Shown piece by piece: positions 36,031 through 39,953 of a stretch of DNA of 39,953 nucleotides. The notes beneath the pieces are model-generated. The model did not search any database and was not told the origin of the DNA. It worked only from the letters and a program-made list of their open reading frames with translations. Position 1 is the first letter of the stretch. The number at the start of each line of letters is the position of its first letter. Both the position numbers and the translations under genes were made by a program. Source of the stretch: Pedobacter agri PB92 (lineage in GTDB: Bacteria > Bacteroidota > Bacteroidia > Sphingobacteriales > Sphingobacteriaceae); the NCBI RefSeq assembly GCF_000258495.1, contig NZ_AJLG01000019.1, positions 1 to 39,953 of the forward strand, read 5' to 3'.

Positions 36031-36855
36031 TTAGGTATTTTGCATCACCAGGATCACATTATCAAAATTCTCCTTAGCCAAATCTTCTTCATGGATACCA
36101 AAGTAAGCAACGCTATCTCCAAAATGCTCAATGCCGATTTTTGGATCGCTAAAATCTAACTGAAGCAAGAGTACAAACTGATCTTCCTCCCGGTTAATGC
36201 GATCCATTTGCTCCTGGGTGATGGCATCAATATGATCAATACCTAAATATTTCGCAGCCCACCAAAACCTTACTGTACCCTGAACAGCGTTTGGATGCCC
36301 TAATATTTGATGCCCGATATCAGTCAATGCCGATGCCGATTGAAGTTCCATTTCAAGCGATTCCATCAAAAATAAATCTTCATCACTAATATTATTTTTA
36401 ACAATCAGATTTTCCTGATAGCAAGGAAAGGTATACTGTTCGACAAAGGAAATAGAAAATGCTGGAATTTCCTCACTTTTTCCATTAACATTACCTTGTA
36501 TCGTACTGTTGACGAACACGACTTTAAATTCATTTTTTTGGTCAGGATAGCGGTTGCCAATATCATTTAAGAGTATAAAAAAACATAGCAGGCCACTTTT
36601 AGGCAATAAACCATTCAGGTAATGAATATCATCTAAAGAAATTTGTGCTAAAAAGATTAAGGGAACATCATGAAGTGATGGATAATGCTGATCAAAGATC
36701 CTGGGCGCTCCCCCAATTTGCGACCTTGATTGCTTTATTGCAGCAGGCTCATCCAAACTGAATTTTAAACTGGGTAGTAATAATGATATTATTTTTTGCC
36801 CGTTTACAGCTTTTGTATTTTCTATAAGTTTAATAATTTCTACTTTCTCCATCAA
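36031..36855 (-). CDS. YwqG/DUF1963 family protein
   Basis: This 274-residue soluble protein shows the DUF1963 features. They are SRSQIGGAPRIFDQHYPSLH, VPLIFLAQISLDDI and the GLLPKSGLLCFFILL strand, then GHQILGHPNAVQG, and FVLLLQLDFSD with FGDSVAYFGIHEEDL near the end. The function is unknown. Such genes often lie in clusters with polymorphic-toxin immunity genes. It is first in a four-gene minus-strand cluster running to 35120. The two initial Met are equivalent starts. Confidence 0.85.
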   Translation of the reverse strand: MMEKVEIIKLIENTKAVNGQKIISLLLPSLKFSLDEPAAIKQSRSQIGGAPRIFDQHYPSLHDVPLIFLAQISLDDIHYLNGLLPKSGLLCFFILLNDIGNRYPDQKNEFKVVFVNSTIQGNVNGKSEEIPAFSISFVEQYTFPCYQENLIVKNNISDEDLFLMESLEMELQSASALTDIGHQILGHPNAVQGTVRFWWAAKYLGIDHIDAITQEQMDRINREEDQFVLLLQLDFSDPKIGIEHFGDSVAYFGIHEEDLAKENFDNVILVMQNT

Positions 36856-37586
36856 TCTAGAAAATTAAATCATTTAAGTGAATGTTAGGATGATTGATTA
36901 AAGCTTGTTTTGCTCCAATAATGATATTCGTCACATTCCTAAATATAGCATCAAACATACTTTTAATAAGTCATTTACTGAATTGATATTTGAACTGCAA
37001 AACGCTTCGTTTTTTGGGACAATATTACAGGGAATTTTCAAATGATTGTGCAAGGAATTTATGATAACACCATACTGTATGAAGCCAAAACGTTTACAGT
37101 GACCAAGTGATGTGATTAGCATATTCAACAAAAGAAAGCCCATCTAAAAAAAGGCCGGTAAGCAGCTATTGGATTTTAAATTTGTGTATAGATATTTAAA
37201 GGATATCAAGTCTCAAAAAAGAAGATATCCCTCCCCTATCAGCTTAAGCTTATATGCAGTATTCCGCAAATAGAAAATGTATCATAAAAGCGAACATTTG
37301 CCTGTCTTAAACCTCATAATCTTGGAGTCATTATATGTTGAACCATATAGCTAATTAAGTCATCTCACACAAATATCAAGGGACTTAAATACCGAAGTAT
37401 TTTGCCAGTGCATAAAATTGAAAAATTGACGTTTCTTTATTGAGGCGATGAGCAAAAATATTTGCATCAGTCAACGGACAAAAAACTTATGTTGGTATAA
37501 GTTGAAATAAAAAAAACAAGTGGATTTGTGATGTGTGTAATTCCTTAAAATTTGTCATCATAAAATAACTGGACTTCAAAGAAAAA
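36856..37586. other. AT-rich non-coding stretch upstream of the IS110 element
   Basis: No convincing gene. A 70-codon minus-strand frame (37143-36931) has Cys/His-rich, low-quality composition and is rejected. The left end of the IS110 element lies somewhere here or in the next segment, but IS110 elements lack terminal inverted repeats and I could not place the boundary. Confidence 0.45.
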
Positions 37587-37784
37587 TGTCCCTTAATGCG
37601 AAGTAATTATTGAAAGGCAATGAGTTAAAATGACCTATGTATACCATCAAGACAAAGACTTACGGCATGATTAAGGATTTTAAGTTTTGCAGGAGATAAG
37701 TATAAACATTCAGTTGGGTTGAATCAATATCAAAATGAGGATCAAGACCTATATTACGATGAGATGCCCAACTGTCAAGGGACA
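37587..37784 (+). ncRNA. Candidate IS110 bridge RNA
   Basis: Just upstream of the transposase ATG, TGTCCCTT (37587-37594) pairs with AAGGGACA (37777-37784), closing a 198-nt segment. Inside are two further stem-loops. One pairs CAAAGACTTA (37653-37662) with TAAGTTTTG (37681-37689), with one bulge. The other pairs CAGTTGGG (37711-37718) with CCCAACTG (37767-37774). The second encloses an inner stem AATAT/ATATT plus AGG/CCT, leaving internal loops of 7 and 11 bases. IS110-group elements encode a bridge RNA of about this size upstream of the recombinase, with such two-sided guide loops. The pairings are seen; the function is inference. Confidence 0.4.
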
Positions 37785-37795
37785 ACTATTTAAAC

Positions 37796-38830
37796 ATGAA
37801 ACGATATAAATACTTTATTGGAATTGATGTTAGTAAATTGACCCTTGACTTTGCGATTATGAATGTAGAAAAACTGATCTATCATAAAAAAATCGCAAAT
37901 GACGACACTGCAATAGCATCGATGCTCGTTGAGCTAAAAGAAATTAATGGATTTAAGCTATCAAATTCAGTGTTTGGAATGGAACATACTGGAATTTATT
38001 CCAATAAAATCTTGAGTATATTAGAAAGGAAAAAAGCAAATATTGTTTATGAAAACCCCACTCATATCAAAAACTCACTAGGTAATTTGAGAGGTAAGAA
38101 TGACAAGCTTGATTCCATAAGAATTGCCACTTATCTCAAAAAATTAAAGGATGATTTAAGGTTATGGCAAGGAAAGAGAAAAATCATTCAGGAGCTTGCT
38201 AGCTTAGTCGCATTGAGAGACAGGCTTGCAAGAACAAAAAGAGCACTAAAAACTCCATTGAAAGAAGATCATTTATTTGTTAGCACCAAATTTGCAATTC
38301 AAAACGAGAAGTTTTCATCAAGAACCATAAATGGCTTAGAGGCTGATATCCATATCTTAGATGAAACGATTAACTTATTATGCTTGTCCGACCCAAAGAT
38401 TAAAAGAATGATGGATATTATCACATCAATTCCTTGCGTTGGGCACTTTACGGCGTTACAGATGATCATAACTTCCAACGAATTCGAAACCATCAGTAGT
38501 CCTAAACAATTCGCAGCTTATGCAGGTTTGGCTCCCTATCCAAAACAATCAGGAACCGGGCTGCAATCCAGGAGTCGTGTCTCAAATATTGCTAATAAGA
38601 AAATGAAAACACTTTTGCATACATGTGCAATGTTATCTAATCGTTTTGTACCTGAAATGCAAGCTTATTTCAAAAGAAAAACTGAAATAGAGGGAAAACC
38701 GAAGATGCTTGTTTTTAATGCCATCAGATCAAAGCTCGTCTTAAGGGTATTTTCCTGTATTAAACAAAATAGACTCTATACTAAAGATTATGATTACACT
38801 AGTGAAAAACTAACTCAAGAGATAACATAA
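37796..38830 (+). mobile_element. IS110-family transposase (complete)
   Basis: This 344-residue serine/DEDD recombinase has an N-terminal RuvC-like domain with FIGIDVSK (Asp11), FGMEHTGIY (Glu63) and GKNDKLDSIRIA (Asp103, Asp106). A central coiled-coil linker follows. The C-terminal Transposase_20 domain contains ITSIPCVGHFTALQMI and FAAYAGLAPYPKQSGTGLQS (Ser252 is the likely nucleophile). Length is normal for the family and no frameshift is seen. Unlike many neighbours it reads cleanly. No terminal inverted repeats or target duplication were found, as expected for IS110. Confidence 0.92.
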
Positions 38831-38891
38831 ACATAGTTTGCCGTTTTATTGCAACTAGAAATAAATTAAAAAAATAAGAGGTACTATTTTA

Positions 38892-39005
38892 TTATAGTTC
38901 TTTTTTCAGTACTACAACAGGCCACGGATACTTTTTCCGCTTAGGATCCGCGTACACTTCACATTTTGGGAGGTTGAAATGGAAAGATTTCGAGGATCTT
39001 TGCTT
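38892..39005 (-). pseudogene. C-terminal gene remnant between the IS110 copies
   Basis: A minus-strand open piece encodes KSFHFNLPKCEVYADPKRKK followed by YPWPVVVLKKEL and a TAA at 38892. Composition is strongly protein-like, but a stop at about 39006 and no start codon precede it. The adjacent frame upstream (DVLADDRSKDPRN) may be the continuation. It is probably the 3' end of a gene broken by insertion or decay. The family is not recognised. Confidence 0.4.
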
Positions 39006-39182
39006 CTATCATCTGCTAAAACATCAATTTCATACATTAAACTTGCGACCAGGCAGTGGGGATATAGACAGATGCGATAAAGACCGCCTCTTATTCTTAT
39101 TGACAATGAAATTTCTTACTTTGTACTATCAAATCACTCAACTGTTTGTATTGACATTTTTGAGATAAACTTATGAATCATT

Positions 39183-39196
39183 ATAGTTATAACTAT
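39183..39196. repeat. 14-bp perfect palindrome
   Basis: ATAGTTATAACTAT is fully self-complementary and lies directly before, and overlapping, the ATG of a small membrane-protein gene at 39195. It could be an operator; AT-rich palindromes of this size also arise by chance. Confidence 0.3.
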
Positions 39197-39386
39197 GCAC
39201 TATTTTAAGCTCAAAGATGACTACTACTGCGGAAGAAGCAACCTATATGTTGAAATAGATTATAAATCTTTATATGATTAAAGGCCTTTCGAGTGGTTTG
39301 ATTTCTTACTTCTACCAATTCTAATTTTTGTTTATCTTGTATTACAAAATCTCAACCATGGATATCTTCATTTTGAAATAGACTAA
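39195..39386 (+). pseudogene. Small membrane protein gene interrupted by an in-frame TAA
   Basis: One frame of 64 codons starts MHYFKLKDDYYCGRSNLYVE, reads to YKSLYD, meets a TAA at 39279-39281, and continues without a frame change as RPFEWFDFLLLPILIFVYLV. It ends HGYLHFEID at a TAA at 39384. The second half is a clear membrane segment. A single change (TAA to AAA) restores a 63-residue protein. It is either a nonsense mutation or a miscall between adjacent T and A runs. The family is unknown. Confidence 0.45.
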
Positions 39387-39527
39387 GGACAAGTGTTAGT
39401 ACTGATCTATTCAAGACCATAAGCATGAAGGTGGTTATTTCGTGGCATATGCGACCTAGTTCTAAAGGTAGACGAATAAATTGTTGATTAAAGGACTTTA
39501 TAATGGTTTGTTAAATTAATATGTGTT
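39387..39527 (+). other. Upstream region of the second IS110 transposase gene
   Basis: These 141 bases are all that separates the interrupted small gene from the second transposase gene. They must contain any left-end guide RNA of that element. Short inverted words (AGGT near 39429 with ACCT near 39453) are present, but no convincing overall fold was found by eye. Confidence 0.3.
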
Positions 39528-39942
39528 ATGATAGAGAGCAAGCTCACTGTTATTAAATATTTCATTGGAATAGACGTCTCTAAAGCTACATTTAATTACT
39601 GCTTAAGATATGCAGGAGGGCCTGTTTTGAATGGTAAAGTTGCTAATAATGTGGAATCAATTAAGGAATTTATTCTAACACTTAAAGAAATTCCAGGCTT
39701 CAAGTTAGGTTATACAGTATTTGGAATGGAAGTCACCGGAGTATATGGTCTCATACTGATAGATACTTTAACCAAGATGAAAGCAAAAGTGGTTGTTGAA
39801 CCTTCGATGAGAATTAAGAATTCCCTCGGAATCATTAGGGGCAAGAATGATAAACTCGATGCTGCTCGAATCGCCAGATATCTTATCAAGAACCTTCAGG
39901 AATTGAAACTGTGGGTACCTCACAGAAAGATTATAGATGAGC
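39528..39942 (+). mobile_element. IS110-family transposase, partial (cut by contig end)
   Basis: From the ATG at 39528 the frame encodes the N-terminal half of a second IS110 transposase. It has KYFIGIDVSKATFNYCLR (first Asp), VFGMEVTGVYGLI (Glu), RIKNSLGIIRGKNDKLDAAR (third and fourth acids) and ends LKLWVPHRKIIDE where the window stops. By eye it is about 45% identical to the first copy, so it belongs to a different lineage and is not a duplicate. The final 11 bases are not homologous and look like barcode. Confidence 0.88.
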
Positions 39943-39953
39943 AGTGTGTACGT
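39943..39953 (-). other. Probable untrimmed sequencing barcode
   Basis: AGTGTGTACGT is the reverse complement of bases 1-11. In the transposase frame the family sequence KIIDEL should continue with A/S-rich residues, as in the first copy (KIIQELASLV). Instead the homology stops exactly where this tag begins. Confidence 0.8.

Follow-up and report, generated by a model that had tools for sequence, protein, structure and literature searches.

In the genome of Pedobacter agri PB92 (5.14 Mb in 379 contigs), a 198-nt segment at 37587-37784 of contig NZ_AJLG01000019.1 very probably encodes a bridge RNA, in which two guide stem-loops (SL1 and SL2) are closed by a common stem (P1) and which is made just upstream of, and used by, an adjacent IS110-type recombinase, here called W1. 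This contig (C19 in our numbering), read on its forward strand over its full 39,953 nt, is the window of the present analysis. The anatomy of the segment (for SL1 by hand parse and pattern), its kinship with a covarying family of stem-loops and the matches between guides and flanking DNA in relatives are shown, and the case for a bridge RNA rests on these relatives, not on the single sequence. The W1 RNA is a variant: it is a bridge RNA in plan, and its guides did not match its own flanks in the tests described below.

The segment is bounded by a perfect 8-bp inverted repeat, TGTCCCTT at 37587-37594 and AAGGGACA at 37777-37784, and 11 bases (37785-37795) separate the 3' arm from the W1 ATG at 37796. 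An earlier note on this DNA had placed segment, repeat and gap at exactly these coordinates. In the minimum free energy (MFE) fold (-41.9 kcal/mol), P1 closes the segment and the two stem-loops that the note had described lie inside it. SL1 and SL2 can each be parsed into a box, an 11-nt left guide, an inner hairpin and a 7-nt right guide followed by GA. For SL2 the note had read facing internal loops of 7 and 11 bases; comparison with relatives instead gives 19 and 16 nt, and the MFE fold pairs parts of these loops together. We call SL1 target-binding because it comes first in order, as in an element of Weeksellaceae strain MIP2422 and in other relatives. The features are as follows, together with the evidence for each; R2 is a stem-loop model introduced below.

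37526-37554, + strand: possible promoter read from the sequence, TTG (37526-37528) and TAAAATTTG (37546-37554)
37587-37594, + strand: closing stem P1, 5' arm TGTCCCTT (repeat, fold, comparison)
37622-37684, + strand: SL1, proposed target-binding stem-loop, arms 37622-37631 and 37677-37684 (fold, hand parse)
37632-37637, + strand: SL1 box GACCTA, near the GNNTTA of relatives (pattern)
37638-37648, + strand: SL1 left guide TGTATACCATC (pattern; same position as in flank-tested relatives)
37649-37661, + strand: SL1 inner hairpin AAGACAAAGACTT (compare AAGTTTTAAGACTT in MIP2422)
37662-37670, + strand: SL1 right guide ACGGCAT plus GA (pattern; G invariant and A nearly invariant in the unit alignment)
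37711-37774, + strand: SL2, proposed donor-binding stem-loop, outer stem CAGTTGGG/CCCAACTG at 37711-37718/37767-37774 (model R2)
37727-37737, + strand: SL2 left guide ATATCAAAATG (R2 match)
37738-37750, + strand: SL2 inner hairpin AGGATCAAGACCT (R2 match)
37751-37759, + strand: SL2 right guide ATATTAC plus GA (R2 match)
37777-37784, + strand: closing stem P1, 3' arm AAGGGACA (repeat, fold, comparison)
37796-38830, + strand: W1, IS110-family DEDD/serine recombinase of 344 amino acids (domain matches, invariant residues, matches to solved relatives)

The possible promoter is based on a Bacteroidetes consensus that we take to be TTG and TAnnTTTG.

From its sequence, W1 is an IS110-family recombinase with a DEDD motif and a catalytic serine, distant from IS621. 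It matches PF01548 (DEDD_Tnp_IS110) and PF02371 (Transposase_20) with 71.8 and 67.6 bits against cut-offs of 29 and 21.3, and among solved structures it matches ISCro4 (9t56, expectation value (E) 5.9e-17) and IS621 (8wt6, phmmer E 1.5e-16). That distance agrees with the earlier note, which had assigned the pair to a lineage distinct from IS621. Residues D11, E63, D103, D106, and S252 are invariant across W1 and five relatives and align with the equivalent residues of ISCro4; the roles given to such residues (D102, S241) follow the literature and general background. The guide RNA lies upstream of the gene, which fits the IS110 group and not IS1111. A DNA search found one copy of the W1 element in its own genome. 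No element boundaries could be drawn.

Thirty-one stem-loops, taken from arrays and transposons, align to a single plan: outer stem, a box near GNNTTA, left guide, a hairpin AGG..CCT, seven bases, GA and outer stem. RNAalifold found zero pairs in a mixed alignment (A2), which we attribute to outer stems lying out of register. In a realignment (A3) of 17 units, drawn from six W1-branch loci of the recombinase tree (see below) and made to a structure of our own and not including the window's copy, 91.4% of cells are paired, compared with 77.8% after shuffling, and slid versions reach at most 56%. Both sides changed in 11 of the 13 pairs (covariation score 0.546 vs 0.284; 0/500 shuffles), and further pair types did not go beyond the shuffles (88/500). 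The model built from these 17 units, R2, gave 81 matches at E up to 0.5 over 66 sources (400,518 bases). Across 119 genomes of the genus, that of the window included, 17 genomes yielded 47 matches at E up to 0.01. A comparison of coordinates by eye that covered 32 of them placed each 5' of an IS110 gene and no more than about 350 nt from it. Run unfiltered on the window alone with a cut-off of E 5, R2 reported three matches, with SL2 ranking first (37710-37775, 16.8 bits, E 0.033; the other two E 0.17 and 0.73). A crude stem scan of 75 loci counted 368 units against 213 in shuffles and is too noisy to serve as sole evidence.

What the guides match can be read from natural insertions outside the W1 branch. 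Strain MIP2422 (loci L105-L111) carries at least seven copies of a 39%-identical element, and comparison of the copies brackets both ends. Its RNA shares the plan of the window RNA and has the closing stem AAGATTACA/TGTAATCTT. The left guide of the first stem-loop (GCTTCTATC) equals the left flank in four of seven copies and is one base off in three, and the right guide complements AAATCCCTGC at the right junction in all seven. In the second stem-loop, the left guide (ATAGAAAT) is identical to the element's right end, and the right guide is partly complementary to the left end.

The same relation was tested in loci of the transposon type. Seventeen have a first stem-loop, and the 12 with recognisable left and right ends were used (L046 and L064 lack the left motif, L091 and L101 the right one, and L060 both). 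Flanks were cut by hand at the motifs, with the right end of L055 set by eye and one of two left motifs picked in L038 and L069, and the permuted guides were given the same freedom. Left guides made 96 matches with their own left flanks (permuted mean 55.9, maximum 79; 0/10,000) and right guides 60 with their own right flanks (permuted mean 30.2, maximum 55; 0/10,000). Consistent with this reading rule are also five copies (L179-L183) of a 34%-identical element in the same-genus genome G052: the left guide ends in TTCGTC and each of the five left flanks in CGTC, and the right guide predicts TCATTTCAT where all five right junctions read TCATTTCGA, perhaps partly the element's own end. Homology breaks in the group of locus L011 did not fit that group's guides as parsed. 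The right flanks of the G052 copies are variants of one sequence (ATTTCGACCGGAGTGCAACGGAGTGGAGAAATC etc.) that resembles repetitive extragenic sequence, and two of the five copies (L179, L180) have the left end and first stem-loop duplicated (157 bp), a possible first step toward an array.

The closing stem was followed across 20 upstream regions, with the 5' arm allowed from -260 to about -121; W2, a second IS110 gene in the window, was omitted as its frame differs. Counted from the start codon, the best stem has its 5' arm at -185 to -221 in 16 of the 20 regions; L032, L016, L017, and L008 lie outside this range, and chance may explain the stems of L033 and L020. The arms differ in sequence among regions (TGTCCCTT, ATCCCTTTA, TGACACCTCT, TAGCCCCTG, ATCAAATCACTC and others). 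With W2 counted there are 21 regions, and in 10 of them, those of W1 and W2 included, the stem is equalled by at most 32 of 300 crude shuffles. Eleven distinct arm pairs, that of L020 coming from a separate comparison, are 94.3% paired vs 61.2% after shuffling (score 0.977 vs 0.251; 0/500); seven of eight pairs changed on both sides, a count that 24 of 500 shuffles equal and that is biased upward because the arm pairs were selected for pairing. Covariation, which the earlier note had named as a check, is present in the stem-loop family, without the window's copy, and in these picked closing stems.

We infer that the W1 locus is transcribed and that its product binds the recombinase and is active. 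The RNA would be produced just upstream of the recombinase gene and used by its product. SL1 would probably bind the target and SL2 probably the donor, with P1 holding both together. Within each stem-loop, the left guide would pair with one strand and the right guide with the other strand of a DNA site, and the recombinase would join the two sites so chosen.

Taken alone, the segment proves little: its fold has a z-score of -1.66 and is equalled or bettered by 11 of 200 shuffles, and 23 of 300 shuffled window pairs yield a closing stem as good as P1. Apart from the bias in the arm pairs, several results weigh against the segment being a bridge RNA. A search of 36800-39953 returned no Rfam match at E up to 1. 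In 11 of the 21 regions the best stem is equalled by 54 to 294 of 300 shuffles, with the nearest relative, L032, at 294. SL2 is among the weakest R2 matches over the 66 sources (E 0.33), SL1 was not reported by R2 and is parsed by hand and pattern, and the genome of the window itself has zero R2 matches at E 0.01.

The W1 guides point the same way. Against the flanks, the left target guide reached at best 8/10 (273 of 1,000 shuffles as good), the right target guide 6/9 (896 of 1,000, or 999 when scanned up to the contig end), the left donor guide 7/10 (999 of 1,000) and the right donor guide 7/10 (903 of 1,000) or, on a second reading, 7/9 (900). Exact plus wobble scoring of every junction in about 36901-37586 and 38701-39500 gave background, as did joint junction patterns and a whole-window joint site scan for W1 ends. 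Eleven branch loci including W1 jointly scored 158 against a permuted mean of 158.2, with 5,897 of 10,000 permutations as high; in this test, L020 reached 11/11 solely because the scan ran into its own RNA. When the window and eight regions of 15-19 kb were scanned for joint sites, each against six shuffles, three cases rose above all shuffles: L011 and L015, which reflect their own RNA in antisense, and L023, at 16/19 vs at most 15. The predicted W1 target has zero places with 0 or 1 mismatch in its own genome (best 2 mismatches). It has 138 places at up to 3 mismatches vs 76 for the reversed pattern, a difference that we do not take as evidence because target and control are not alike in word composition. 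The sequence ATCTCAC near 37361, considered as a left end, was dropped, being unremarkable in junction scoring and about 225 bp away from P1, and a repeat scan of the window for invertible DNA found nothing suggesting a shufflon. The two sites that the W1 RNA would join are not its own flanks as found. The proposal of the earlier note, a bridge RNA whose loops specify the donor and target of its IS110 recombinase, is thus supported for the kind of RNA, a two-guide-loop plan that matches target DNA in relatives, but not for the loops: shuffled guides fit the flanks, or any plausible end, just as well, an outcome that the note had named as refuting, and the 11 branch loci fail together.

A protein search with W1 matched 73 of 198 genomes, its own included, and the best match apart from the window itself was 54% identical. 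From a scan of genome contigs we kept the best 80 of 149 relatives. In a tree of 88 rows, built by a quick method with support from the Shimodaira-Hasegawa-like approximate likelihood ratio test only and with W2 and L101 omitted, W1 falls within a 38-row Pedobacter/Mucilaginibacter branch (support 100), nearest to L032 and L044 (fork support 91). Outside this branch fall the elements whose transposon ends can be recognised (e.g., L037, L038, L041, L050, and that of MIP2422). Three relatives about 90% identical (L155, L156, and L158) have zero flanking open reading frames (ORFs) in common, as do L149-L153, and L154 and L157 are both adjoined by homologous operons but on opposite sides of the recombinase gene. 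Given these differing surroundings, genes of the W1 branch seem to move or be exchanged. Among mobile DNA, the best plasmid match to W1 is 36% and the best phage match 28% identical, and no viral-contig match was confirmed. The recombinases L150, L154, and L157, from two subgroups, lie near homologous operons that look like RND (resistance-nodulation-division) efflux operons by protein size (about 1,076 and 500 amino acids). At L049, the gene preceding the stem-loops ends in a phage tail-collar-like stretch, as read by eye.

Within the W1 branch, guide units also occur in rows. Six loci have at least three units at E up to 0.02, namely L034 (eight), L035 (four) and L036, L039, L042, and L062 (three each); L034, L035, and L039 supplied training units, whereas L036, L042, and L062 are independent. 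In L034 (Mucilaginibacter polytrichastri), eight tandem units of two alternating types occupy 1802-2464, a stretch of about 660 bp on the upstream side of the gene. In L042 (Pedobacter panaciterrae), 1796-2369 holds four units with near-constant scaffold and right guide, which alternate with a second unit type and carry distinct 9-nt left guides (GGGGGCAGG, GGTATAGTT, AGCGACAAG, AAAGATGTC). The left guides of L034 vary less than those of L042, roughly as much as the scaffold. Some units are found downstream of their gene (L035, L039, and L062) or on the opposite strand (L043, L048, and L067). In 60 kb around the array, the L034 guides found nothing above control; in their own genome, two L034 patterns gave 34 places vs 57 for the control and 520 vs 520, and one degenerate L042 pattern 39 vs 46. 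The ORFs around L034 look by eye like conjugation and integrase genes, and L040, another recombinase of this kind, is found about 26 kb away. A literature search of titles and abstract beginnings found no description of bridge-RNA arrays, which is weak evidence of absence as bioRxiv lay outside its scope. We tentatively consider, while rating it doubtful on balance, that bridge RNAs of the W1 branch no longer specify their own ends and site but form pairs of guide stem-loops or tandem arrays (up to eight per gene) with different guides on a near-constant scaffold. One recombinase would thereby be sent to many site pairs, possibly rearranging host or foreign DNA.

Known systems allow some comparison. 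IS621 (PMC11208160, PMC11208158) resembles the W1 pair in having an RNA encoded 5' of the recombinase gene, a left and a right guide in each of two loops, and DEDD plus serine; it differs in that one stem closes both loops in the W1 RNA, and in that IS621 guides match its ends and target whereas no match was found for W1. The seekRNA of ISEc21 (PMC11187229), also of the IS110 family, likewise comes from an upstream non-coding region and has its bottom-strand match 5' of its top-strand match, but the ISEc21 target is known and surrounds the element, whereas none was found for W1. The MIP2422 element and other Bacteroidota IS110 elements outside the W1 branch (such as L037, L038, L041, L050, L054) also have two guide stem-loops, in which box, hairpin and GA are those of W1, and the MIP2422 RNA is closed by P1 like that of W1. 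These elements differ in that their ends can be recognised (CTTTAG or TCTTAGG on the left, ATAGAAATC on the right) and their guides match both flanks. TIGR-Tas arrays (PMC12045711) have tandem guide units and, according to that paper, a related RNA-binding fold. They are comparable only with the W1-branch arrays and differ in using 36-nt tigRNAs and Tas proteins. PMC13199778 is a further source.

The gene W2 starts at 39528, 698 bp downstream of W1, and runs off the contig end (39528-39953). It is 49% identical to W1 over 130 residues, and its closing stem ATCAAATCACTC/GAGTGGTTTGAT (39128-39139/39291-39302) lies 225 bases from its ATG. Another contig of the same genome, C176, begins with a partial IS110 gene (residues 106-333, 40% identical to W1).

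Four other accounts of the segment have to be weighed. W1 may belong to an ordinary IS110 insertion sequence whose ends and target exist but were missed, through decayed flanks, a neighbouring IS110 inserted at the right side or misread guides. This is a special case of the bridge-RNA explanation, with which its odds overlap, and we consider it a serious contender that falls somewhat short of an even chance. Relatives outside the W1 branch do show guide-flank matches; L154-L158 (82-92% identical) and L149-L153 (63-73%) share almost no flanking ORFs, as expected of mobile DNA; and W2 begins shortly downstream. The single genomic copy, the failure of the W1 guides against their own flanks, the joint failure of the 11 branch loci, the lack of a clear site in the scanned regions (L023 alone standing out) and the low identity of the plasmid and phage matches, with no viral-contig relative confirmed, all speak against it. 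The pair could also be a decayed remnant, a former transposon RNA and recombinase whose guides have drifted, and the guides indeed match nothing nearby while the predicted target has no near-perfect place in the genome. We regard this as unlikely: the 344-residue frame is open with all catalytic residues, P1 is perfect and GA is kept in both right guides.

A structured 5' leader that only regulates recombinase translation would explain why the segment ends 11 bases before the ATG, where P1 could affect the start region. Members of the same stem-loop family, however, stand in rows and also occur on the downstream side of the gene or on the opposite strand, the W2 closing stem is 225 bases from its ATG, and in L042 the left guides vary although the scaffold hardly does; we rate a leader as very improbable. 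Chance structure in AT-rich DNA would account for the weak single-sequence statistics and is hardly credible against the comparative evidence of unit covariation, R2 matches and P1 arm pairs.

The bridge-RNA reading of the segment contributes a pair of recombinase and RNA that is remote from IS621, the RNA having two loops and a closing stem. It also gives a simple rule for reading such RNAs, namely box, 11-nt left guide, hairpin and 7-nt right guide plus GA, which has been checked on natural Bacteroidota insertions. If the W1 branch uses guide arrays that are not aimed at its own ends, bridge recombination would not be solely a transposon tool, and, if this is true, the cellular role of array-guided recombinases becomes testable.
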